From the IMG/VR virus record IMGVR_UViG_3300025168_000763, positions 1 through 22,059 of that record: a stretch of DNA of 22,059 nucleotides. One strand, 5' to 3'. The notes under the pieces are model-generated. The model was not told the DNA's origin, ran no database searches, and saw only the letters and a list, made by a program, of their open reading frames with translations. Below are positions 1,549-15,141 of this stretch, piece after piece. This DNA comes from a virus. The stretch's first letter is position 1. Each line of letters starts with the position of its first letter. The position numbers and the translations under genes are program-made.

Positions 1549-1683
1549 ATGGCGCTGGATGCTCAAAAGTTTTTTTATTTTTCTTATACCGGGATATTGC
1601 CAATACTCCAATACCTTTTAGTGTTTTTGGTGTGTGATAAAGGATATTCGGTATTGGCAAGGTATTGGGAGTTCAAGGGTTAA
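1549..1683 (+). CDS. Possible 44-aa hydrophobic peptide
   Basis: AAAGAGG (1534-1540) sits at a workable distance before ATG 1549. The frame then stays open to TAA 1681-1683, just before the terminase small subunit start. The peptide has a hydrophobic stretch (residues about 14-28, ILPILQYLLVFLV) that could span a membrane. Against it, most of the DNA is occupied by CCAATACC-type sites and a T-rich tract, and the composition is unlike its neighbours. It may be a spurious ORF across a regulatory interval; low confidence. Confidence 0.25.
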   Translation: MALDAQKFFYFSYTGILPILQYLLVFLVCDKGYSVLARYWEFKG

Positions 1684-1778
1684 GCATGAAAAAAGAGGAA
1701 AAAGTAACTGAAATGAGTAAAAAAGACAGTATAATCAATAAGATAGATAAGGTTGGTGAAAAGGTTGTTGCCAATACC
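1600..1778. repeat. Cluster of CCAATACC/GGTATTGG sites around the terS start
   Basis: Perfect copies of the 8-mer CCAATACC lie at 1608-1615 and 1771-1778 (+ orientation) and 1650-1657 and 1661-1668 (as GGTATTGG). A further GGTATTGG is at 1302-1309, in the start of the LexA-like gene. A one-mismatch copy (1600-1607) directly abuts 1608-1615, giving an 8-bp tandem. The pair at 1650-1671 is an 11-bp tandem, GGTATTGGCAA then GGTATTGGGAG. The 1600-1615 pair and the 1650-1668 pair face each other as inverted arms. The set looks like a multi-site protein-binding region; candidates are a repressor such as the LexA-like protein, or TerS. Confidence 0.7.
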
Positions 1779-2357
1779 ATCCGTAATACCAGGGACATGG
1801 CATTAAAACACCCTAAAGGCGAAGATGGGTTGACTGATAGACAAAGAATATTTGTTGAATTGTACTCTGCTAATGAAGGTAGACTTACACCTACTGAATG
1901 TGCTAGACAGTCTGGATATAAACCAGAACGTGCAGCTGTAACAGCATCAGAGTTGTTAAATGTAAAAAAGTCACCCAAGGTTGTACAAGCTATAGTTAAA
2001 AGAAGAGAAGAGATTGCAAACACACATAAAGTTGAAATGGACAAGCATGTCCAAGAGTTGGCACGTCTGCGTGAGACTGCGCTTGATGCTAAGTCTTATA
2101 GTGCTGCAGTTAATGCTGAGCGGTTGCGTGGACAAGCTGCAGGATTGTACATTGACCGTAAAGAAATCAGAACTGGCAGTATTGACAGCATGTCCCGTGA
2201 TGAAGTTTTAAAACAATTAAAGGAATTAGGATTAGATGGAAAGTTCAGGAAAGAAAATAATAAGACTATCTTATCGGTCGAAGAAGAATCCGATAGCGAG
2301 CCAATTGACATCACCCCAGTGGAAACAAAAGGTGAACAAGAACAAGAAGAAGTATGA
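1686..2357 (+). CDS. terS: Terminase small subunit (TerS), about 223 aa
   Basis: DNA-recognition subunit of the packaging motor. The N-terminal part carries the Terminase_2-like signature 'LTDRQRIFVELY...LTPTECARQSGYKP' followed by 'ASELLNVKKSPKVVQAIVKRREE', a helix-turn-helix unit typical of TerS proteins. The middle (from about 'MDKHVQELARLRETALDAKSYSAAVNAER') is a long helical oligomerisation region; the C-terminus is acidic (EEESDSEPIDI...EQEQEEV), as expected for contact with TerL. I choose ATG 1686 (AAGGG at 1675-1679 upstream); a TTG start at 1665 or ATG 1713 are alternatives. Codons change towards CGT/CTG/GCT in the helical segment (about 2045-2150), a patch unlike the flanks. It overlaps the nuclease gene by four bases (ATGA). 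Confidence 0.85.
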   Translation: MKKEEKVTEMSKKDSIINKIDKVGEKVVANTIRNTRDMALKHPKGEDGLTDRQRIFVELYSANEGRLTPTECARQSGYKPERAAVTASELLNVKKSPKVVQAIVKRREEIANTHKVEMDKHVQELARLRETALDAKSYSAAVNAERLRGQAAGLYIDRKEIRTGSIDSMSRDEVLKQLKELGLDGKFRKENNKTILSVEEESDSEPIDITPVETKGEQEQEEV

Positions 2358-2788
2358 CCGCAAAACCGGAAACAAATTTTTGGAAGAGTGTAAAGACATA
2401 CTTAGAGGGTGGTAAGTATTTAGTATCGCGTATTGAGTCTTACGTTACACCAGGATTCCCAGATTGCATAGTATATCATGAGGATTGTGGATTCTTTACG
2501 TTAGAATTAAAAGTAATGAGGCGTAATAAAAAAGGGGACGCAAAAGTACTCATATCACCTCTACAACATGCCTTCCATGTCTCTTATTCTATGCGGCGTG
2601 CTCCTGTATTTATCCTAATTACGGACCCCGGGAAGGGGGTCGTAAAGCTTTTTGACGGTAGTCAAACTCCCAAACTCCGTGATTCTACCAACTTGGACGA
2701 AGGACCAAGGCCCTTGTACCACGGCCCGCTGGCCGGGATGCAGCTGACGCAGTTCGCAAACTCCAAAAGTCCCAAACTCCGGGAATAA
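2354..2788 (+). CDS. VRR-NUC-type PD-(D/E)XK nuclease (144 aa)
   Basis: Small nuclease of the VRR-NUC/Holliday-junction-resolvase-like superfamily. Visible active-site pattern: 'TPGFPDCIVYH' (the Asp of G-x-PD), 'FFTLELKV' (the E-x-K motif), then 'ISPLQHAFHVSY', the usual Q-rich helix after the core. Phages use such enzymes to process branched DNA before packaging. It starts inside the TerS stop codon (ATGA) and is probably translationally coupled. The core ends near residue 105 ('FILITDPGKGVVKLFDG'). The remaining about 38 residues come from GC-rich repeat DNA and contain two copies of a '(T/S)PKLR' motif encoded by the dispersed repeat described below. So the gene's 3' end seems to have been extended by, or to host, two repeat units. 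Confidence 0.8.
   Translation: MTAKPETNFWKSVKTYLEGGKYLVSRIESYVTPGFPDCIVYHEDCGFFTLELKVMRRNKKGDAKVLISPLQHAFHVSYSMRRAPVFILITDPGKGVVKLFDGSQTPKLRDSTNLDEGPRPLYHGPLAGMQLTQFANSKSPKLRE
2663..2737 (+). repeat. Composite repeat unit A
   Basis: Two perfect tandem copies of CAAACTCC (2663-2678), then about 45 bp, then a GC-rich segment with repeated GGCC (2722-2737), followed by AGCTGACG. It lies within the 3' end of the nuclease gene and is translated there as QTPKLR. Confidence 0.6.
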
Positions 2789-2843
2789 ACCTCCCGTCAT
2801 TCGCCTTATGGAGCTGCTGGTTTGTACGCCGGGCGCGCCGGGG
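2757..2843 (+). repeat. Composite repeat unit B
   Basis: Three tandem 8-mers (CAAACTCC, AAAAGTCC, CAAACTCC; 2757-2780), then about 50 bp, then a GC-rich segment centred on the palindrome GGCGCGCC (2832-2839), then AGCTGATG at 2853. The first part encodes the last residues of the nuclease (NSKSPKLRE). Confidence 0.7.
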
Positions 2844-2892
2844 AAACTATGGAGCTGATGATCGGCGGACTTATGCCATTCTGCCATTTCCT

Positions 2893-2977
2893 AAAAGTCC
2901 CAAACTCCTGACTATTTCTCCCCAACCTGTGCCTAATGAAGAAATATGTTCTCGCCCGCCCGGGCGCCCGCGGGAAC
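2893..2977 (+). repeat. Composite repeat unit C
   Basis: AAAAGTCC plus CAAACTCC (2893-2908) is a 16-bp exact match to 2765-2780 in unit B. About 40 bp later comes a GC-rich imperfect palindrome (2948-2977) with an 8-bp outer stem GTTCTCGC/GCGGGAAC (one T-G pair) and an internal CCCGCGGG. Confidence 0.7.
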
Positions 2978-3028
2978 AACACGGAAATAAAATGGCTGAA
3001 AACAGGGAAATTTTTTTGCTGGTAGCTG

Positions 3029-3057
3029 TTGACATCCCAGCGGAGCTGAGCTATATC
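3029..3057 (+). promoter_or_regulatory. Sigma70-like promoter in the control region
   Basis: A perfect -35 TTGACA (3029-3034) is followed 17 bases later by TATATC (3052-3057), a fair -10. No supported gene follows before 3782, so any transcript would be a leader or untranslated RNA crossing repeat units D and E, possibly an origin-activating transcript. Confidence 0.4.
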
Positions 3058-3236
3058 TATTGATAGAATGAGAAAGAGAGGCAAATATGGATTGACTAGG
3101 TTTATTAATACCAGTAAAATTGGCGGTTTTCTGCCTTATTATTGTACTGGTACTACGAAGTTCGGGGAGTTGGTGATGCGTTCACCTGCTGCGACCGGGC
3201 AGCATACGCTGCAGCCACAGCTGCTGCCTGGATCCT

Positions 3237-3316
3237 GAAACTCCTAAACTCCTGGAAGGTTCCATCCCAAAAAGCAGGATGGCCACCTTTCAGGTTTACG
3301 CACCGGGCGCGCCCGG
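3237..3316 (+). repeat. Composite repeat unit D
   Basis: GAAACTCC and TAAACTCC in tandem (3237-3252), then about 50 bp, then the perfect 14-bp palindrome CCGGGCGCGCCCGG (3303-3316). The approach to the palindrome (GTTTACGCA) resembles that of unit B (GTTTGTACG). Confidence 0.7.
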
Positions 3317-3384
3317 CGGAAAGACAGTCATGATTTATCATAATAAGAAGAAATGGTTTGGCTCTGCACAATATAGGAATGGAG

Positions 3385-3393
3385 TTATCCACA
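3385..3393 (+). promoter_or_regulatory. DnaA box 1
   Basis: TTATCCACA, an exact match to the bacterial DnaA-box consensus. One of three exact copies within 1.14 kb; I noticed none elsewhere in the window. Confidence 0.6.
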
Positions 3394-3411
3394 AGATATT
3401 TATCAATGTCC

Positions 3412-3440
3412 TTGGACGACCAACCTTGGTGTGGTATAAT
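3412..3440 (+). promoter_or_regulatory. Extended -10 promoter
   Basis: TATAAT (3435-3440) is preceded by TGG, giving an extended -10 (TGnTATAAT). A weak -35-like TTGGAC (3412-3417) sits at 17-bp spacing. The start would be near 3447, giving a leader of about 330 nt before the gene at 3782. It lies 18 bp downstream of DnaA box 1. Confidence 0.55.
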
Positions 3441-3458
3441 AAGACAGTTAATTAATTA

Positions 3459-3543
3459 GAGTATGGTCAGCGACCTAGTTGCTAACAGTAGAAACAAGTA
3501 CTCGACGAGGTTTGTGTGCGCATTCATCTCTCGCAAGAGAATG
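3459..3543 (+). other. Potentially structured leader RNA segment
   Basis: Directly downstream of the 3412-3440 promoter several short stems can form: GAGTA (3459-3463) with TACTC (3499-3503) enclosing a GGTC-AGC-GACC hairpin (3465-3475), and TCTC-GCAA-GAGA (a GNRA tetraloop, 3529-3540), alternatively CATTC/GAATG (3521-3543). It does not read as a tRNA or a known ribozyme. It may be a structured 5' leader or a small RNA; the stems are short. Confidence 0.25.
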
Positions 3544-3581
3544 GTACATCCGACAGACATGAGGCATGGTAGTTATATCTG

Positions 3582-3665
3582 TAAGTCCTCTAAACTCCTA
3601 AACTCCTAACTACCTCCCATCCATTATATTAGTACTGCACTTCCTGTTGTCCTGCCCCCGCGGGC
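3582..3665 (+). repeat. Composite repeat unit E
   Basis: TAAGTCC, then TAAACTCC twice in tandem (3591-3606), a degenerate TAACTACC (3607-3614), about 40 bp, then GCCCCCGCGGGC (3654-3665, core palindrome CCCGCGGG as in unit C), then AGCTGATG at 3674 as in unit B. Confidence 0.7.
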
Positions 3666-3700
3666 GATGGCTGAGCTGATGCGAGTGATGTGAGTTGTCT

Positions 3701-3743
3701 GCCCGGGTGCGACATCGTGTCACATGTACATTGTTAGTATAAT
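3701..3743 (+). promoter_or_regulatory. 24-bp element with dyad upstream of a -10 hexamer
   Basis: GCCCGGGTG is followed by the near-palindrome at 3708-3724 (arms TGCGACA and TGTCACA, 3-bp centre). A second copy of the 24-bp element lies at 4525-4548 (20 of 24 identical). A perfect TATAAT is at 3738-3743 and the dyad covers where its -35 would be; no good -35 hexamer is present. This is the layout of an activator-dependent or repressed promoter for the small genes starting at 3782. Confidence 0.4.
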
Positions 3744-3781
3744 ATGTATTGTATTAGTATTAATAAATAGAAAGAGAATAT

Positions 3782-4048
3782 ATGACAAAGAATGAATTTA
3801 AGGACATAGTTAAACGTGGTTTCTTTAGCTGTAAGTGGATTAAGAACGATGGCACAGTTGGTAAGATTAAACTAGGTGTACTAGGTAAGCTAGGCTATCG
3901 CTTTACTAAAGAGAAACAAGTAACTGAACACCCTAACTACGTCTTAGTATTTAGAATAAATAGTAGAGCTAAGTCAGACTTCCAACGTTGGGCAAATGTA
4001 AACCCCGACACAGTCTTTGAGATTAGTGGCAAGAGTTATCCACAATGA
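3782..4048 (+). CDS. Small SH3-like beta-barrel phage protein (88 aa)
   Basis: ATG 3782 follows AGAAAGAGA. The pattern 'FFSCKWIKNDGTVGKIKLG...HPNYVLVFRIN...RWANVNPDTVFEI' matches small phage proteins of the DUF2693/SH3-like kind, in which a 'KkDGt.R' turn begins a beta-barrel and a 'R.iN.dtv..i' strand ends it. Their function is unknown; they are often single-copy early proteins. Its last codons contain an exact DnaA box, and its stop overlaps the next ATG (ATGA). The family call is from memory of the pattern, so moderately sure. Confidence 0.6.
   Translation: MTKNEFKDIVKRGFFSCKWIKNDGTVGKIKLGVLGKLGYRFTKEKQVTEHPNYVLVFRINSRAKSDFQRWANVNPDTVFEISGKSYPQ
4036..4044 (+). promoter_or_regulatory. DnaA box 2, inside coding DNA
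   Basis: Exact TTATCCACA in the last sense codons of the 3782 gene (it spans the end of S-Y-P-Q). Confidence 0.5.
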
Positions 4049-4134: not shown

Positions 4135-4458
4135 ATGACTAACAAAAACGAAGAACAAACAATGGACTCATTAGTTCCTGTTGAATCAATCAAGGGTGTT
4201 GATATTACCCCTGTTATGCAAGAAGTAATAGAGTATGCTAAAGACCACGCAAGTTTTGGCGACTTGGAATCAATCATCTCATCTGTTCCTGCTAAGTCTA
4301 GCTTAGATTGGAAACTTATATCTGGCGTGCTTATGAATAGCACAGTTGAATGGGTTGTTGATAACAAAGGCAATAGTAATGTTGAATCAATAGATTTAAT
4401 TAGACATTTACAAAAAGATGTAGGGTACTTACTACAACGATTAGGTTTAGCTGGTTAG
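4135..4458 (+). CDS. Hypothetical protein, unknown function (107 aa)
   Basis: A strong Shine-Dalgarno AAAGGAG precedes ATG 4135. The protein is acidic and mixed, opening MTNKNEEQTMDSLVPVESIK. It is probably helical from about residue 28 ('MQEVIEYAKDH') to the end ('RHLQKDVGYLLQRLGLAG'), with no membrane helix and no catalytic signature. It is the last of three small genes in the control region and is followed by a hairpin and the virion-operon promoter. No family recognised. Confidence 0.65.
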   Translation: MTNKNEEQTMDSLVPVESIKGVDITPVMQEVIEYAKDHASFGDLESIISSVPAKSSLDWKLISGVLMNSTVEWVVDNKGNSNVESIDLIRHLQKDVGYLLQRLGLAG

Positions 4459-4475
4459 TCACTAGTTAATTCTCA

Positions 4476-4506
4476 GCACAGCTACTACTATATCTAGTGG
4501 CTGTGC
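4476..4506 (+). other. 12-bp-stem hairpin after the small-gene cluster
   Basis: Bases 4476-4487 pair with 4495-4506 (one G-T pair) around the 7-nt loop CTATATC. It lies 18 bases after the stop of the 4135 gene. No T-tract follows, so it is not a standard rho-independent terminator; it could be a transcript 3'-end stabiliser or part of the origin. Confidence 0.5.
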
Positions 4507-4512
4507 ATAACC

Positions 4513-4521
4513 TGTGGATAA
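4513..4521 (-). promoter_or_regulatory. DnaA box 3 (opposite strand)
   Basis: TGTGGATAA, the exact reverse complement of TTATCCACA. It sits between the hairpin and the second 24-bp element, about 130 bp before an AT-rich stretch (4649-4699). Confidence 0.6.
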
Positions 4522-4524
4522 GTC

Positions 4525-4548
4525 GCCCGGGTGTGACACCATGTCGCA
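4525..4548. repeat. Second copy of the 24-bp element with dyad
   Basis: GCCCGGGTG then arms TGTGACA and TGTCGCA with a 3-bp centre (4532-4548); matches 3701-3724 at 20 of 24 positions. Three of the four differences fall within the dyad arms, which keep the consensus TGYGACAnnnTGTCRCA. Immediately downstream is another GC-rich stretch (GGCGCCCGGGACTCC). Confidence 0.55.
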
Positions 4549-4643
4549 GGCGGCGCCCGGGACTCCGGCGGACGGACCTTTCGACCCCCCTACACCCCCT
4601 ATATCAGAACCCGAATTGAGAACTGGGTTTGCACTGTTTGAGA

Positions 4644-4672
4644 GTGACAATTACCACAAAAAACGTTATAAA
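4644..4672 (+). promoter_or_regulatory. Promoter of the virion operon
   Basis: GTGACA (4644-4649) and TATAAA (4667-4672), each one base from the sigma70 consensus, are separated by exactly 17 bp. The transcript would start near 4679, about 20 nt before ATG 4700. The surrounding AT-rich tract (4649-4699) could also serve as a DNA-unwinding element for the neighbouring DnaA box. Confidence 0.6.
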
Positions 4673-4699
4673 AAATTTAAAAAAAATTAAACATTTTGT

Positions 4700-5338
4700 A
4701 TGTCATTTTTAGTAGCTAATTTACCCCCAATAAAAGTACTTGTAAAAAAGCAATATTTATATGATCATCAAAAGGGAAAAGGAGAATTTGTAGAAGGTGT
4801 TTGGATTAGTTGTAAATCTATCCAAGGTAGAGCGTTATACTTTGAAACGTACTTGCCGGAATATGGTGCTTTATATGATAAGCTGCCTATTAGCGCTTTT
4901 GTTAACGCCCCTACTGATCTGGATCTTGAATTAGAAGAGCTACAACTATGGGATGCATTTAGCTACCACTTAACTATTGTAGAAAAAGCTTCTATATCCG
5001 GAGTTAGATGTAAATACCTTGCGCCTTCCAAAAAATGGTACTATGGTGAATACCTGTTTACGATAGATAATGCTCATGCGGATACAAATATCCTTAATGT
5101 AAATTACTCAGAGGTCCCAGAAGAGCACAAATCGTTTAACATATTAGAATTGGACAACGGACATTTCGCTGCCCAACCAAATAACCGTGTCATTTTCTAC
5201 GATAAATCGCTTACACCAGCAAAACCACTGCAACCTGACTTTAAAGTGTCAACAGAATACTACTCTGTAGAGAATAAATCTAAATGGACGGCTGGAGATG
5301 ACGATAATTACCATTATAACTTAAAAGAACAAGAATGA
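4700..5338 (+). CDS. Conserved marine-phage protein upstream of TerL, unknown function (212 aa)
   Basis: Starts MSFLVANLPPIKVLVKKQYL and contains 'GVWISCKSIQGRALYFETYLPEYGALYDKLPI', a pattern I associate with a conserved protein placed directly before TerL in marine phages. It is beta-rich, soluble and aromatic-rich, with no membrane helix. No Shine-Dalgarno sequence is visible before ATG 4700, so initiation may rely on the short unstructured AT-rich leader. Its stop overlaps the TerL start (ATGA), implying coupled translation and perhaps a packaging-related role. Function unknown. Confidence 0.75.
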   Translation: MSFLVANLPPIKVLVKKQYLYDHQKGKGEFVEGVWISCKSIQGRALYFETYLPEYGALYDKLPISAFVNAPTDLDLELEELQLWDAFSYHLTIVEKASISGVRCKYLAPSKKWYYGEYLFTIDNAHADTNILNVNYSEVPEEHKSFNILELDNGHFAAQPNNRVIFYDKSLTPAKPLQPDFKVSTEYYSVENKSKWTAGDDDNYHYNLKEQE

Positions 5339-6786
5339 AGAGCCTAGATTCACTAGATACGCAAACTTTAAAGTATATTTTGAAGAATGCAGTACTAGAA
5401 AAGCAAGAAAAAGCCCAAAAAGACTTTATGTCCTTCGTAAAACAGGTTTGGCCGGAGTTTGTAGAGGGAAAACACCATAAAATTTACGCAGATAAGCTAA
5501 ATCGCATTGCAAACGGCGAATTAAAGCGATTAATTGTAAATATGCCTCCAAGACACACAAAATCGGAGTTTGCATCGCATTTATTTCCTGCATTTTACAT
5601 GGGCCGCCATCCTAAGGCAAAATTGATACAAACTACACATACAGGAGAACTAGCAATCAGATTTGGACGTAAAGCAAAAAATTTGATAGAATCTGACGAA
5701 TATGAAAAAGTTTTTCCTACAGTTAAACTGGCTGCAGATTCGAAAGCTGCTGGACGTTGGGAGTCGAATCATGGCGGTGAGTATTTTGCTGCTGGTGTTG
5801 GCGGTGCTATTACCGGTCGAGGGGCTGATCTTCTTATTATTGATGATCCTCATTCTGAGCAAGATGCGCTATCCCCTCATGTCCTCGATGCTCATTATGA
5901 GTGGTATACTTCTGGCCCTCGTCAGCGTCTTCAGCCTGGTGGTGCTATTGTCCTAGTAATGACGCGTTGGTCGATAAAAGACCTAACAGGAAAGTTATTA
6001 GACGCACAAGGAAAAGACGACATGTCAGATCAATGGGAAGTTGTCGAGTTTCCTGCTGTTATAAACGATAAACCTATGTGGGGTAACTTTTGGACCATGG
6101 ACGGTTTAAATGGAGTCAAAGCTTCCATACCTTTAACCAAGTGGCAAGCACAATGGATGCAGCAACCTACGTCCGAAGAAGGTGCCCTTATAAAACGTGA
6201 GTGGTGGAAAAAATGGGACGAGGAAGATATACCGGAATTACAATATGTCATACAAAGTTATGACACAGCATTTAGTGCAAAACAATCTGCAGACTATTCT
6301 GCTATAACAACGTGGGGTGTTTTTACACCAGTGGAAGGAGAACGTACGGCATTAATTTTACTGGACGCCAAACGCGGCCGGTGGAACTTTCCTGAGCTAA
6401 AAGCAAAGGCAATGGAAGAGTATGAGTACTGGGAACCAGAGGCTGTTCTTGTAGAAGCCAAGGCCAGTGGCTTGCCATTAACTCATGAGTTGCAAAAATC
6501 AGGAATACCTGTTATAAATTATACACCCTCTCGAGGAAATGATAAACACACGAGGGTAAACAGCGTAGCTCCGCTATTCGAATCAGGAGCTATTTGGGCG
6601 CCCAATAAATCGTTCGCTGAAGAAGTTATCGAAGAATGTGCAGCATTTCCATTCGGTGACAATGATGATTACGTGGATTCTACCACGCAAGCGCTGATGC
6701 GTTACAGACAAGGATACTTTGTAACATTAGACGATGATTACGAAGATGAAGAAAAAATTAAAGTCGGAGGGAGAAGCTACTACTAA
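5335..6786 (+). CDS. terL: Terminase large subunit (TerL), ATPase-nuclease (483 aa)
   Basis: Packaging motor protein with both domains intact. ATPase: Walker A-like MPPRHTKSE (residues 70-78), Walker B LLIIDDP (166-172, with acidic D170/D171), coupling motif 'VLVMTRW'. RNase H-like nuclease (Terminase_6C type): acidic residues in YDTAF (D310), LVEAK (E374) and DDYVDSTTQALM (D448). Length is normal for the family. It overlaps the upstream gene by ATGA and the downstream gene by TAATG. Codons within about 5745-5955 (the ATPase core up to the coupling motif) switch to T-ending (GCT, GGT, CTT, CGT), unlike the A-ending codons before and after, a mosaic pattern suggesting recombination. Confidence 0.95.
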   Translation: MKSLDSLDTQTLKYILKNAVLEKQEKAQKDFMSFVKQVWPEFVEGKHHKIYADKLNRIANGELKRLIVNMPPRHTKSEFASHLFPAFYMGRHPKAKLIQTTHTGELAIRFGRKAKNLIESDEYEKVFPTVKLAADSKAAGRWESNHGGEYFAAGVGGAITGRGADLLIIDDPHSEQDALSPHVLDAHYEWYTSGPRQRLQPGGAIVLVMTRWSIKDLTGKLLDAQGKDDMSDQWEVVEFPAVINDKPMWGNFWTMDGLNGVKASIPLTKWQAQWMQQPTSEEGALIKREWWKKWDEEDIPELQYVIQSYDTAFSAKQSADYSAITTWGVFTPVEGERTALILLDAKRGRWNFPELKAKAMEEYEYWEPEAVLVEAKASGLPLTHELQKSGIPVINYTPSRGNDKHTRVNSVAPLFESGAIWAPNKSFAEEVIEECAAFPFGDNDDYVDSTTQALMRYRQGYFVTLDDDYEDEEKIKVGGRSYY

Positions 6787-11300: not shown

Positions 11301-12631
11301 ATGAAATGGCTCCTACTTTTGACGTCATCGCTTTAGGTGATGCCACAGGTGCTAAAGTACTGAGTAAAGTAGAAAGAAGTTTAAATAAAATTGATACCCA
11401 AGCTATTCGTAACCCACAAGTAAAAGGATTTTTTGATTACATGAAAACTGTTATTAATCCTTTACAACGATTAGGTGGAGATGCAGATGAAAAAGCAATC
11501 CTTAGTAATAAAATAAATGAAATGGTGGAAAGAAATTTTGGTATTAAGAATGCTTTAGAAGAAGGTGTTCCCCAAAGATTTCCATTTGAAGTAAAAGAAG
11601 TATTATCCCAAGTATCCACGGCCCTTGGAAAAAGAACTTCAGGATTTAGTAAATACGATAGTAGAGCTATACACGAGGGCACACAAACACTAAGTGGTGG
11701 TGATAATTACCGTGAGTTTTTATTTACCCATAAACCAGGTAAACTACGATCAAGCGAACCAAATTATACGTATGCTCATGATTTTGGATTAAGCCAAGGA
11801 CAAAGAGCTGGGGGTGTAGTTCACACACGTGTATCAGATAGAACAGATCAATTTGGTAGAAGACTAATGCATATAGAAGAAATACAATCTGACATGCACC
11901 AGAAAATTAATATGGCACAACGTGCCCTAAAAAAACAACATGCTGAATTTGAGAAAAAAGGACTAACTCCTAAGCAAGGACGAAACAGACTGGATGGTTA
12001 TCTACAAAGAGATTATGATGAACTAGTAAAAGATGCCCAGTATGCACCACGACAAGATGTTAGACTTAAAAAAGAAATAAATGCTAATGAACAACAGATG
12101 CGTTTAATACAGGCAAAGATAGAAGACTTGTTAACAAAACCTCAAAACAAAGCGACACAAATTAGGTTGGTAAGACTTAATAAAGAAAGAGCTAAGATTA
12201 GAAGAATTTTAGAAGAGGAAAAATCAAAGCTAGCTGAAAATACAAATACTACAGGAATACCAGAAGGACCACTTAGAAAAAGTGAAGATTATAATGAATT
12301 TGTTATGAAATACTTATTGCGTGTAGCAGAAGAAGGTGGTTATGATGGGTTATCTATTTCTACTCCAGCCATTAAAAATCTATCATTAAGCCCAGGCAGC
12401 AAAGACTTTATTGGTAATTTAACAGCGTACGGACCAATAGCGAATGGTGCTATGAAAAAGGCTGCAAAAAAAGTAGGTGCAAAATTTATGAAAACTGCTA
12501 TAGTTGATGAGAAAAAAAGGGGATGGGAGATTCCAATGATATTAATCAAAGAAAACAAAATCGCCAAAGACATAATTAAAAAAGGCACACCTATTTATAA
12601 AAAAGGTGGTTCAGTAAAAGGTAAGAAATAA
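8309..12631 (+). CDS. 1440-aa multidomain 'polyvalent' virion protein with SleB-like hydrolase
   Basis: Modular protein, probably carried in the virion. (1) Residues about 1-330: basic N-terminal region ending in an HNH-like motif, SHIIP (272-276) followed by N289 and N298-R299. (2) A perfect twin-arginine pattern SRRKFLK (353-359) followed by a Gly/Ala stretch. (3) A beta-rich region (about 400-590). (4) A SleB/cell-wall-hydrolase-like domain (about 620-805): 'MARMMMAEDSSQQGG' with candidate catalytic E645, 'NNRL' (660-663), then 'DFTGGADFFH' (764-773). (5) A C-terminal domain with 'HIEEIQSDMHQ' (1188-1198) and 'AEEGGYDGL' (to 1348), a pattern found in phage polyvalent proteins. Lys/Arg/Ser-Gly-Gly motifs sit between the parts and at the C-terminus. 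Enzyme activities are inferred; domain (5) has no certain function. Confidence 0.8.
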   Translation: MAKVKLAKIIYKKLKNGKDSLEKSHAVYGGKRFELDELVPVQVRGEKGKLLTRDKFRPRVVEEKRLADLATAPGVNKKRKTSLSSDAENKNKYIMNTLESMPDKQLFRLTVKEMDEMFGRNVSSQRKRVLNKRINPATGKKYESFDMPLSAFGRHYNEYDKFDNPIVVNRKLKSKLGLKEKNYNKIIKLFNDIDLLSETKTPTNSRASLFLQIDRAIKNSKLPEDETIENIIGQVDKSAWGKLLRERNIGRATRTRAEKAGILKKSDRPEVSHIIPVSKDLSKALDTNNVFYEPQGINRARPKGEVAQRRYNYIKELDDSIIRPLAEYDLMDKYSLSKGGLIKDVLSGAAQMSRRKFLKGSGALAASTALPMRTVAKVLPKVAVKEASRFAPPWVKSMIGVLDQIGTKGAYMSHTMKNGTKISSAGKVKDDYRGQKQEFEVINSDGYRVPVNLYRPKNGDLHVEFDIRDDFQNNQHIYMDRKTGQVEIVDENYYMTGPEDFAKDDPLVWDVTTPTQMSQFEKKMGLMRGDGDDYIKDYMSTPEGGDYSDLFESFIDSFSPSGSIFKTKEKAQIAKDKKIQQTQRKLEDDEMRFEEEFRGGNIHSFNRGGSTDKIVPKFKPDQLKRYRFMNNLSDQEAMARMMMAEDSSQQGGYGVAHVINNRLKRGHSNYGSFMGILPQDREYAVDEKGNRLGLGPRVEYSKFRDEGVREFSDLQRILMGYDQFTPFRSGKNSRFFGDYTGNELDLYNNYYDYAGKVLGGNVEDFTGGADFFHKAEENPSRGFGGVNPTYFNKFGGTDFYKSYNSGGIARRPGAVPPEKGPDPLGYSIKNMGEQFIKKAKGGLLRKIPKVMGKITDYKAKLEGPSVQGPIRPDKPFTVFDEDGLPIKDFDTGKEARDFLRNNEYADMYTAGAKKAEPIEDTAGAMFWNSREKIVNAPSEAMQANQWLDFMKRGKHGILNPKGLAIIKDQELNDTSLAPYLSQMGKQIISKEKLVKEFDEMAPTFDVIALGDATGAKVLSKVERSLNKIDTQAIRNPQVKGFFDYMKTVINPLQRLGGDADEKAILSNKINEMVERNFGIKNALEEGVPQRFPFEVKEVLSQVSTALGKRTSGFSKYDSRAIHEGTQTLSGGDNYREFLFTHKPGKLRSSEPNYTYAHDFGLSQGQRAGGVVHTRVSDRTDQFGRRLMHIEEIQSDMHQKINMAQRALKKQHAEFEKKGLTPKQGRNRLDGYLQRDYDELVKDAQYAPRQDVRLKKEINANEQQMRLIQAKIEDLLTKPQNKATQIRLVRLNKERAKIRRILEEEKSKLAENTNTTGIPEGPLRKSEDYNEFVMKYLLRVAEEGGYDGLSISTPAIKNLSLSPGSKDFIGNLTAYGPIANGAMKKAAKKVGAKFMKTAIVDEKKRGWEIPMILIKENKIAKDIIKKGTPIYKKGGSVKGKK

Positions 12632-15141
12632 TGGCTGAAAATCCAAATAACAATATAGAAAAAGCATTAAGTTCTTTAACAGACGCTTTAGAGATAGAAC
12701 CTACAGGAGAAGAAATACAACTACAAGATGACGTTATGGAAAAGAACGTAGAAATCATGGATGATGGCAGTGCCGTTGTCGGTGAAGAAGAACAAGTTCT
12801 CGATACGTCAAACATACCCTTTAATGCCAATTTAGCAGATTACATAGAAGAAGATGAACTAATGCGTTTTTCTGGTGATCTAGTAAACGATTTCGAAGCG
12901 GATAAAGACTCAAGGAAAGACTGGGAAGATTCCTACGTCAAAGGCCTTGACATGTTAGGATTCAAATATGAAAACCGGACAGAACCCTTCGAAGGAGCGT
13001 CCGGGGTCGTACATCCCTTACTCGCTGAGTCTGTAACTCAATTTCAAGCTCAAGCGTATAAGGAACTTCTCCCCCCAAGCGGCCCCGTACGAACTCAAGT
13101 TGTAGGACTCTCCACCCCTGAAGTACAAGATCAGGCAAAAAGAGTTCAACAATTTATGAACTACCAAATAACAGAAATCATGCAAGAGTATGATCCAGAC
13201 ATGGACCAACTGTTATTTTATCTACCACTTTCGGGTTCTGCTTTTAAAAAGATTTATTATGACGCGTTGATGAAACGTGCGTGTGCAAAGTTTGTAACTG
13301 GAGAAGATTTAGTAATAAACTACATGGCTACTGATTTAGAAAATGCAGCTAGAGTTACACACGTTATTAAAACAAGTGGTAACGATATTAGAAAACAACA
13401 ACTACAAGGTTTTTACAGAGACATAGCTATTACAACAGGACAAGTAGAAACTTCTGAAGCACAAGAAAAAGTAAACACTTTAGAAGGTGTGCAACGTGAA
13501 TACGGACAAGACGAAGATGAGCATACTCTTTTAGAAATGCACATTACAACAGACGTGCCAGGGTTTGAAGATACATCAGGTGTTAAGCTTCCTTTTATTA
13601 TAACAATAGATCAATACTCTGGAGAAATTTTATCTATCTATAGAAATTATAAAGAAGGAGATCCAGATTTTAAAAAGATTTCTTATTTTGTACACTACAA
13701 GTTCCTCCCAGGTCTAGGCTTTTATGGCTTTGGCCTAATACACATGCTAGGTGGGTTATCAAGAACTGCAACAAGTGTTTTGCGACAATTAATTGATGCA
13801 GGTACTCTTGCTAACTTGCCGGCAGGATTTAAGGCACGTGGTATGAGAATACGTGATGACGATACACCATTACAACCAGGTGAGTTTAGAGATGTAGATG
13901 TAACAGGTACATCTATTAAGGAATCATTATTACCTCTACCTTATAAAGAACCAAGTGGTACTTTGTTTCAATTACTAGGTTTCGCTGTTGATGCAGGTAA
14001 ATCATTTGCTGCTATTGCAGACATGAAAATGGGTGAAGGTAATGAACAGAATCCAGTAGGCACAACAATGGCTCTTTTAGAAAGAGGAACTAAAGTTATG
14101 TCAGCTATTCACAAAAGATTACATTACGCACAAAAAATAGAATTTAAATTATTGGCTAAAGTATTTCAATTGTACTTACCACCAGAATATCCTTACCAAG
14201 TTGTAGGGGGTAATCAAATGATTAAACAACAAGATTTTGATGATCGTGTTGATGTTATCCCAGTATCAGATCCTAACATCTTTTCCATGGCACAACGTGT
14301 TACATTAGCACAGCAGCAGCTACAATTAGCTACAGCAAATCCTGGATTACATAATATGCGTGAAGCATACAGAAGAATGTATGATGCAATGGGTGTTGAT
14401 AACGTTGATTCTATACTTAAACCAGATCCTGAATTACCACAACCAATGGGTCCTTCTAGTGAAAATGCAGGCGCGATGAATGGTAAAGCACCTAAAGCTT
14501 TTCCTATGCAAGATCATCAGGCGCACATACAAGCACATGCTGAATTTATGTTTACACGTATGGTACAAATTAATCCTCAGATTTATTCTTTACTACAAGC
14601 ACATATTTGTGAGCACATTTCTTTAATGGCTGGTGCAATGGTGCATGAAGAATTTAAAGAACAAACACAACAACTACAGCAAGCACAACAGCAAGCACAA
14701 CAAAATCCACAAATGGCGCAGCAAGTAGAACAGCAAATGCAGCAATTAATTAATGCGCAGGCTGCTAAACAAGCACAGATAGAAGCTGAAATGACTATGA
14801 AATTAGCTCAAGACGAAGAAGCTAGAATTAGTAAAGAAGCTCAAGATCCTCTTGTTAAACTTAAACAACAAGAATTAGATCTTAAAGCTATGGAAACACA
14901 AATGAAAGTTCAAAAAGATGTTATGGTAGAAGGAGAAAAATTAGATATCGAAAGAGACAAATTAGAAGCCGACACCACTTTAGGAATAATGAAAATGGCT
15001 GCTGATGTTAACAAAGAAGATTCAGAAGAAGCAATGGTTATGTTTAAAGAAAACATGATTAATTCTAGAGAATCAATGAAGTCAGAAGCAAACGAAAAAA
15101 TAGCGAGGACAAATGGACGAGCAAAAACTAAAGGAGATTAA
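12631..15141 (+). CDS. Portal protein (836 aa)
   Basis: Dodecameric head-vertex channel through which DNA enters and leaves. Recognised by overall pattern rather than a short motif: acidic N-terminus (1-75), then 'DWEDSYVKGLDMLGFKYE', 'FEGASGVVHPLLAESVTQFQ', 'FYLPLSGSAFKKIYYD' and 'LPAGFKARG', typical of large portals of marine podovirus-like phages. From about residue 670 comes a Gln-rich helical region ('EQTQQLQQAQQQAQQ...') and a charged helix to the end, which could form a P22-like portal barrel. Bases about 12950-13100 use C-ending codons (CCC, TCC, GTC) unlike the rest, a second codon mosaic. The start overlaps the previous stop (TAATG); the 3' end overlaps the next gene by 29 bases. 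Confidence 0.88.
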   Translation: MAENPNNNIEKALSSLTDALEIEPTGEEIQLQDDVMEKNVEIMDDGSAVVGEEEQVLDTSNIPFNANLADYIEEDELMRFSGDLVNDFEADKDSRKDWEDSYVKGLDMLGFKYENRTEPFEGASGVVHPLLAESVTQFQAQAYKELLPPSGPVRTQVVGLSTPEVQDQAKRVQQFMNYQITEIMQEYDPDMDQLLFYLPLSGSAFKKIYYDALMKRACAKFVTGEDLVINYMATDLENAARVTHVIKTSGNDIRKQQLQGFYRDIAITTGQVETSEAQEKVNTLEGVQREYGQDEDEHTLLEMHITTDVPGFEDTSGVKLPFIITIDQYSGEILSIYRNYKEGDPDFKKISYFVHYKFLPGLGFYGFGLIHMLGGLSRTATSVLRQLIDAGTLANLPAGFKARGMRIRDDDTPLQPGEFRDVDVTGTSIKESLLPLPYKEPSGTLFQLLGFAVDAGKSFAAIADMKMGEGNEQNPVGTTMALLERGTKVMSAIHKRLHYAQKIEFKLLAKVFQLYLPPEYPYQVVGGNQMIKQQDFDDRVDVIPVSDPNIFSMAQRVTLAQQQLQLATANPGLHNMREAYRRMYDAMGVDNVDSILKPDPELPQPMGPSSENAGAMNGKAPKAFPMQDHQAHIQAHAEFMFTRMVQINPQIYSLLQAHICEHISLMAGAMVHEEFKEQTQQLQQAQQQAQQNPQMAQQVEQQMQQLINAQAAKQAQIEAEMTMKLAQDEEARISKEAQDPLVKLKQQELDLKAMETQMKVQKDVMVEGEKLDIERDKLEADTTLGIMKMAADVNKEDSEEAMVMFKENMINSRESMKSEANEKIARTNGRAKTKGD

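Follow-up and report, generated by a model that had tools for sequence, protein, structure and literature searches.

A conserved array of tandem-octamer and G+C-palindrome units, candidate transcript-end modules, upstream of the late genes of marine phages

Several described systems resemble the repeat array reported here. Rho-dependent terminators such as lambda tR1 share with its units an RNA that starts at the end of translation and, in part of the units, has more C than G, a G+C hairpin or palindrome about 50 nt further on and the lack of a U tract; known RUT sites, however, have no conserved exact heptamer, whereas the units carry a near-invariant tandem AAACTCC, with one to three units per gene end. 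RK2 oriV, P1 oriR and lambda ori are iteron plus DnaA-box origins, which the array recalls in its direct repeats of one orientation, its DnaA-box-like sites and its G+C-rich and A+T-rich neighbours. It differs from them in that its repeats are only 7-8 bp long, stand in short pairs and are interleaved with genes over 1-2.5 kb, that a scan of the neighbouring genes gave no initiator, and that sister clades lack the boxes. The P1 hexamer array and the sites of P22 and SPP1 are phage pac sites and, like the array, consist of short repeats near terminase genes, but the span of the array, its interleaved genes, the position of units at gene ends and the DnaA-box-like sites set it apart. REP/BIME elements are intergenic palindromes; the units resemble them in standing at gene ends and in pairing a short conserved motif with a G+C-rich palindrome, but are confined to a single locus, have a 50-bp gap between motif and palindrome and occur in phages, not in bacterial genomes. 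Integron attC cassette arrays also consist of small cassettes set apart by similar elements, whereas the present locus has fixed cassette slots and no attC core, and no integrase was seen beside it.

The array is real and is conserved across a large group of marine phages related to cultured pelagiphages; judged from sequence features, it most likely consists of regular transcript-end modules within a control locus for small genes and RNA that precedes the late operon. No description of the composite was found in the literature searched. The stretch of DNA analysed (the window) is the 22,059-base viral contig IMGVR_UViG_3300025168_000763, whose nearest cultured phages by the terminase large subunit (TerL) are the Pelagibacter phages HTVC027P (66%) and HTVC023P (54%). 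The array occupies a mostly non-coding stretch that runs from a nuclease gene to TerL, and the following genes of the window serve as landmarks.

1683-2357, plus strand: terminase small subunit (TerS; PF03592, phrog_51)
2354-2788, plus strand: VRR-NUC-like nuclease gene with an R-E / G-x-PD / E-x-K / S-x2-Q pattern; unit A (below) lies inside its 3' end
5335-6786, plus strand: TerL, the downstream border of the locus
12631-15141: portal

The R-E, G-x-PD, E-x-K, S-x2-Q pattern is common to the nuclease in six relatives. We infer the name VRR-NUC because these residues fit; the PHROG family label of the protein is helicase, and Pfam gave no match.

Five units in the window have the same composite layout, in which tandem YAAACTCC octamers are followed, after about 50 bp, by a G+C palindrome.

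2663-2740, plus strand: unit A, CAAACTCC CAAACTCC (2663-2678), spacer, imperfect palindrome GGCC-CGCT-GGCC (2723-2734), within the 3' end of the VRR-NUC-like ORF
2757-2844, plus strand: unit B, CAAACTCC AAAAGTCC CAAACTCC (2757-2780), spacer, palindrome GGCGCGCC (2832-2839)
2893-2976, plus strand: unit C, degenerate first copy TAAAAGTCC, then CAAACTCC, spacer holding a degenerate DnaA box CTGTGCCTAA, palindromes CGCCCGGGCG / CGGGCGCCCG / CCCGCGGG (2957-2974)
3237-3319, plus strand: unit D, GAAACTCC TAAACTCC, palindrome CCGGGCGCGCCCGG (3303-3316); the first AAACTCC is overlapped by the stop codon TGA (3236-3238) of a 56-aa ORF
3591-3666, plus strand: unit E, TAAACTCC TAAACTCC, spacer, palindrome CCCGCGGG (3657-3664)

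A 16-bp match, AAAAGTCCCAAACTCC, is common to units B and C, CCCGCGGG is common to units C and E, and AGCTGAYG is present after units A, B and E. The original prediction had placed the five octamer starts at 2663, 2757, 2893, 3237 and 3591 and had listed the palindrome sites and shared words; all of these coordinates were right. Nine copies of AAACTCC were counted in 2601-3800, compared with a mean of 0.09 and a maximum of 2 in 1000 dinucleotide shuffles, and the five tandem octamer pairs compare with 0 in all 1000 shuffles. G+C-only palindromes of at least 8 bp numbered seven (0.64 expected in the whole window), six of them in the array; the single one outside it is 8 bp long. The proposal of one repeated composite element, as opposed to random G+C islands, was borne out by these shuffles and by the recurrence described below. 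The likeness of the units to each other holds for their layout and motifs, but not for the sequence between octamers and palindrome, which is not conserved between the units of one genome.

The composite recurs in more than 130 marine viral contigs, and AAACTCC clusters confined to one strand were seen in nearly all TerL relatives at about 78% identity or more that extend into the region. Searched together with its spacing, the motif was found in more than 119 stretches of IMG/VR, compared with six scattered matches in 84,980 bacterial and archaeal species genomes, which are taken as chance; no direct DNA match to the locus was found among 50,697 phage records. Most of the 132 loci under analysis had been retrieved with the motif and are biased in this respect; the statistics were therefore redone on two sets chosen independently of it, one selected by TerL (19 loci, 99 units) and one by an RNA hairpin described below (33 loci, 188 units). 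The original prediction had named recurrence in related genomes as the point on which it could fail, and the units did recur in the 19 loci chosen by TerL. G+C-only palindromes occurred at 3.61/kb in the arrays of these loci vs 0.095/kb outside (3.4-3.6/kb inside vs 0.1 outside over both motif-independent sets). In the TerL-selected set, each of the 62 unique units that could be measured had its first palindrome 20-60 bp past the last AAACTCC; over both sets this distance was mostly 30-60 bp and never 60-90 bp. In the larger, motif-biased set (681 unique units, 132 loci) the octamer-to-palindrome distance peaked at 50-55 bp. Octamer pairs were spaced by 7-10 bp with a mode of 8, a reversed tandem pair was not found in either motif-independent set, and second AAACTCC copies were exact in 635 cases vs 85 with one mismatch.

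The array is always flanked by the TerS/VRR-NUC-like genes on one side and TerL on the other, and its orientation does not vary. Both long contigs (G001 and G002; 69.8 and 61.7 kb) and the window have one array per genome. The earlier suggestion of a small mobile repeat that had multiplied in the phage is not supported, in view of this single array in the two long contigs, its fixed orientation, place and order, and the scatter of only six matches in 84,980 genomes; the dispersed copies expected of a mobile repeat or MITE are absent from G001, G002 and the window, each of which has a single cluster.

Distances between units are bimodal, with one class of 60-100 bp (tandem units) and one of 150-500 bp. 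The longer gaps hold small transcription units in the fixed order uuu[slot 1]uu[slot 2]u[slot 3]uu, where u is one unit. Slot 1 encodes a protein of about 70 aa with a conserved HYDGVVPVM-type motif and has been lost in the window; slot 2 encodes a peptide of about 25 aa with a single membrane span and an I-P-[LVI]-K motif. A conserved ORF is lacking from slot 3 in most families; the slot holds interchangeable hairpins, to which family C adds a short ORF. Slots 2 and 3 of the window are as follows.

3087-3176, plus strand: slot-2 small membrane peptide frame, M-D-(TGA)-LGLLIPVKLAVFCLIIVLVLRSSGSW, overlapping the 56-aa ORF (3068-3238)
3441-3590, plus strand (probable extent): slot-3 putative small RNA, following a sigma70-like promoter (TATAAT 3435-3440), with a GAGTATGGTCAGCGACC...GTACTC module and a GAGGCATGGTAGTTATATCTGTAAGTCCTC hairpin adjoining unit E

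The slot-2 frame begins with ATG GAY and has TGA as codon 3 in 23 of 34 variants, the rest having TGG (6), TAC/TAT or CAC. Past the TGA the protein sequence is kept through synonymous changes between the window and its 96%-identical relative L005; UGA readthrough is possible, as is a two-codon minigene with reinitiation. Structured RNA built of interchangeable hairpin modules was seen in slot 3 of L018, L101, L117, L062 and about 100 other contigs. The common last hairpin has the core AAGAUAAACGGAGUUAUUCGGCUCUU and an outer stem that covaries, with a covariation score of 0.304 vs 0.108 in shuffled alignments, a score that none of 500 shuffles reached. Neither this hairpin nor the locus gave a credible match in Rfam at gathering or permissive thresholds, and no tRNA genes were found in seven related loci.

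The units stand at the ends of these genes and RNAs. Of 79 slot-2 variants (median distance 2 nt), 34 have a stop codon that begins 1-2 nt ahead of AAACTCC (TAAACTCC or TGAAACTCC), and therefore the octamer itself supplies TAA or TGA. For slot 1 the distance from stop codon to AAACTCC has a median of 10 nt and a mode of 2 (n=77). In 31 of 53 cases, -1 to 3 nt separate the last hairpin of slot 3 from the AAACTCC that follows it. A search with the last hairpin alone added 40 contigs, of which 37 show a same-strand AAACTCC no more than 200 nt downstream of it; in the other three (L329, L344 and L349) the hairpin forms an operon leader, with a ribosome-binding site and start codon following within a few bases, so that the transcript continues without a unit at a place where no end is needed. 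The window has exceptions: unit A lies inside an ORF, and the slot-2 frame stops 62 nt before unit D, on which only the overlapping 56-aa frame ends.

In the direction of the array, the 102 arrays hold 15 intrinsic terminators, compared with about 8 expected. On the opposite strand, 50 were located exactly at the right end of the array, where they serve an opposite-facing neighbour gene; in L005, where this gene is present in forward orientation, it is followed by a hairpin and T run of its own. Since array-strand terminators are near chance, it appears to be the composite, and not a hairpin with a T run, that closes each forward unit. T runs after the palindromes were not above A runs (29 vs 25 of 566), and the fold z of the octamer region, used as a test for unstructured RNA, was near zero.

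Our tentative reading, a call that falls a little short of even, is that the composite is a module for transcript 3' ends, at which termination probably depends on a factor (Rho). The layout of the units, their strand, their position at gene and RNA ends, the lack of intrinsic terminators on that strand and the site enrichments are observed; termination at the units, and by Rho, is what we infer. The locus would then be a control region upstream of the late (TerL-portal-capsid) genes, in which the start of tandem YAAACTCC would mark the end of translation or of a folded RNA. The octamers would give a short ribosome-free stretch of nascent RNA with more C than G, RNA polymerase would pause at the G+C palindrome about 50 nt on, and the termination factor would most simply be host Rho, possibly another reader of AAACUCC. 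One to three tandem units would insulate each small transcription unit, with a separate sigma70-like promoter for every such transcription unit, frequently accompanied by a DnaA-box-like site; the protein of about 70 aa, the membrane peptide of about 25 aa and the structured RNA would each be expressed uncoupled from the other two and from the VRR-NUC and TerL operons. It fits this reading that relatives differ in their cassettes from one unit edge to another. Should the units be terminators, their regularity and sequence specificity would be unusual, and they would set the limits of a membrane peptide and a modular RNA that would go unnoticed without them.

According to the RhoTermPredict rule, a RUT site, recognized in a 78-nt window by its C/G ratio and regular C, is followed by a downstream pause site (PMC6407284). 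Windows of 78 nt with C/G >1.5 and regular C were found in 36% of units vs 5.7% of controls; at C/G >1 the figures were 50% and 10%, half of the units failing. The C-rich bubble is short (about 40 nt). The G+C palindrome, 40-60 nt past the octamers, falls within the 150-nt range set for the pause of Rho terminators, and the units, window unit A excepted, lie at an end of translation or in untranslated RNA, as such terminators do. Against a purely Rho reading, the near letter-perfect AAACTCC is more than Rho needs, and the DnaA-box-like sites are unaccounted for by termination.

In sister subclades, short tandem repeats of different sequence take this position: they occur where the VRR-NUC-like gene ends (3') and again in later gaps as far as TerL. 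GGTCGGG occurs with G+C palindromes in L031, L032, L034 and L047-L049, GCTTGNN heptamers in HTVC027P and many relatives, and GCTC / GGGCCCACCC repeats in 023Pt_psg01. G+C content is raised downstream of the nuclease in 71 of 77 testable loci. Because the subclades carry different repeats at one place, the locus is old and its repeat turns over. This turnover is not accounted for by the Rho reading, and the presence of GGTCGGG or GCTTGNN at the corresponding place counts against a purely Rho mechanism, as does one case among the sister subclades in which the repeat is on a strand that would give G-rich RNA, beside an intrinsic terminator. In HTVC027P the repeats flank gp33 and gp34. A published transcriptome of this lytic phage assigns separate expression classes to gp30, gp33 and gp34, three genes in the corresponding region, whose timing is unlike that of all other phage genes (PMC12753301); the notion of a separate control of the interval is thus open to test in cultured HTVC027P.

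The main rival, possible but unlikely, is a DnaA-dependent replication origin, in which AAACTCC would be the iterons for a phage initiator, the boxes would recruit host DnaA and the A+T-rich DNA at about 4650-4700 would be unwound. DnaA-box-like sites had not been noticed in the original prediction; those of the window outside the units are as follows.

3385-3393, plus strand: DnaA-box-like TTATCCACA, about 20-28 bp upstream of a sigma70-like promoter (TGGACG 3413, TATAAT 3435-3440)
4036-4044, plus strand: DnaA-box-like TTATCCACA in the 3' end of ORF 3782-4048
4502-4535, plus strand: degenerate and perfect DnaA-box-like pair, 11 bp apart, TGTGCATAACCTGTGGATAA, then GCCCGGG; a recurrent sub-module of box pair and palindrome

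The site TTATCCACA occurs at 2.08/kb in the locus vs 0.05/kb elsewhere (615 vs 32; 42-fold), and the motif-independent sets have 81 sites inside vs 1 outside. Adjacent pairs of the same orientation exactly 11 bp apart numbered 107, most pair members lying just 5' of a G+C palindrome. An origin would fit this enrichment and the placement of the pairs, the single array in both long contigs and the direct repeats of one orientation. It is at odds with the lack of an initiator gene beside the array in a scan of the neighbouring genes against PHROGs and Pfam, and with the third-position (GC3) skew, which showed no strand-composition switch at the array and has the same sign on both sides of it in G001 and G002, a test that a one-way origin would escape. 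Nor is TTATCCACA present at this place in HTVC027P, 023Pt or the GGTCGGG relatives, and the units track gene ends, which is not a requirement of an origin; the location of many boxes at promoters also speaks against one.

Many single boxes stand at sigma70-like promoters, which suggests that DnaA may regulate the small promoters. A rather unlikely extension of the transcript-end reading builds on this: the array would be a new control locus in which a sequence-specific factor, and not merely Rho, reads tandem AAACUCC to end transcription or, if antagonised, to let it pass, while host DnaA, titrated by accumulating phage DNA, times the promoters of the membrane peptide, small protein and modular RNA before the late genes.

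A pac/cos region, where TerS, perhaps with the VRR-NUC-like nuclease, binds the repeats and packaging starts towards TerL, is less likely than an origin and altogether doubtful. Its attraction lies in the place of the array between TerS/VRR-NUC and TerL, in the fact that all three groups (AAACTCC, GGTCGGG and GCTTGNN) have their repeats starting where VRR-NUC ends (3'), in the strand fixed relative to TerL, and in the variation of the repeat from subclade to subclade, as expected if a protein and its site co-evolve. It is weakened by the 1-2.5 kb length of an array interspersed with small genes and by HTVC027P, in which TerS is inverted and the array is not, and it leaves the DnaA-box-like sites and gene-end positions unaccounted for. 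By inspection, the TerL-selected contigs did not end preferentially in the array.

It is quite improbable that the units are recombination boundaries, that is, short homologies, perhaps cut by the neighbouring nuclease, for the swap or loss of cassettes. L005 has a 330-bp cassette (promoter, ribosome-binding site and small gene) between units B and C that is missing from the window, and the two differ between units D and E by a non-homologous cassette, homology breaking at unit edges. Cassette alleles occur in varied combinations among phages, and homology resumes within 5 bp of AAACTCC in 361 of 438 comparisons of different cassettes, a partly circular test that is conditioned on a homologous next unit. 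The slot of each cassette is nevertheless unchanged, and because cassettes keep their slots the shuffling of alleles is ordinary homologous exchange; octamer-palindrome spacing, strand and DnaA-box-like sites would also be left unexplained. An integron cassette array was rejected on the same constancy of slots and on the lack of an integrase among the genes examined beside the array. A DnaA-titration or DnaA-control locus (a datA/DARS-like decoy), in which the boxes matter and the units shape DnaA complexes, is very improbable: box clusters and 11-bp pairs beside palindromes would suit it, but there are only 3-9 boxes per genome, octamers outnumber them, and the many boxes at promoters suggest small-gene regulation.

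In one long contig (G001; L191 10183-10968), a gene some 2 kb upstream of the array encodes a 261-aa protein with a ParB-like DGQHRLAAAKELG box, for which Pfam gave no match. The small gene that follows the array (window 4135-4458; compared with L018 and G001) is inverted between close relatives, being forward in the window and L005 and reverse in most; in the relatives it has an intrinsic terminator in either orientation. Positions 4460-4700 of the window combine the DnaA-box-like pair and G+C palindromes with a conserved TTTGAGAGTGACAAT-ACC-CAAAAAACGTTAT block and, directly 5' of the TerL operon, DNA that is very rich in A+T; this region is a candidate late promoter or unwinding element.
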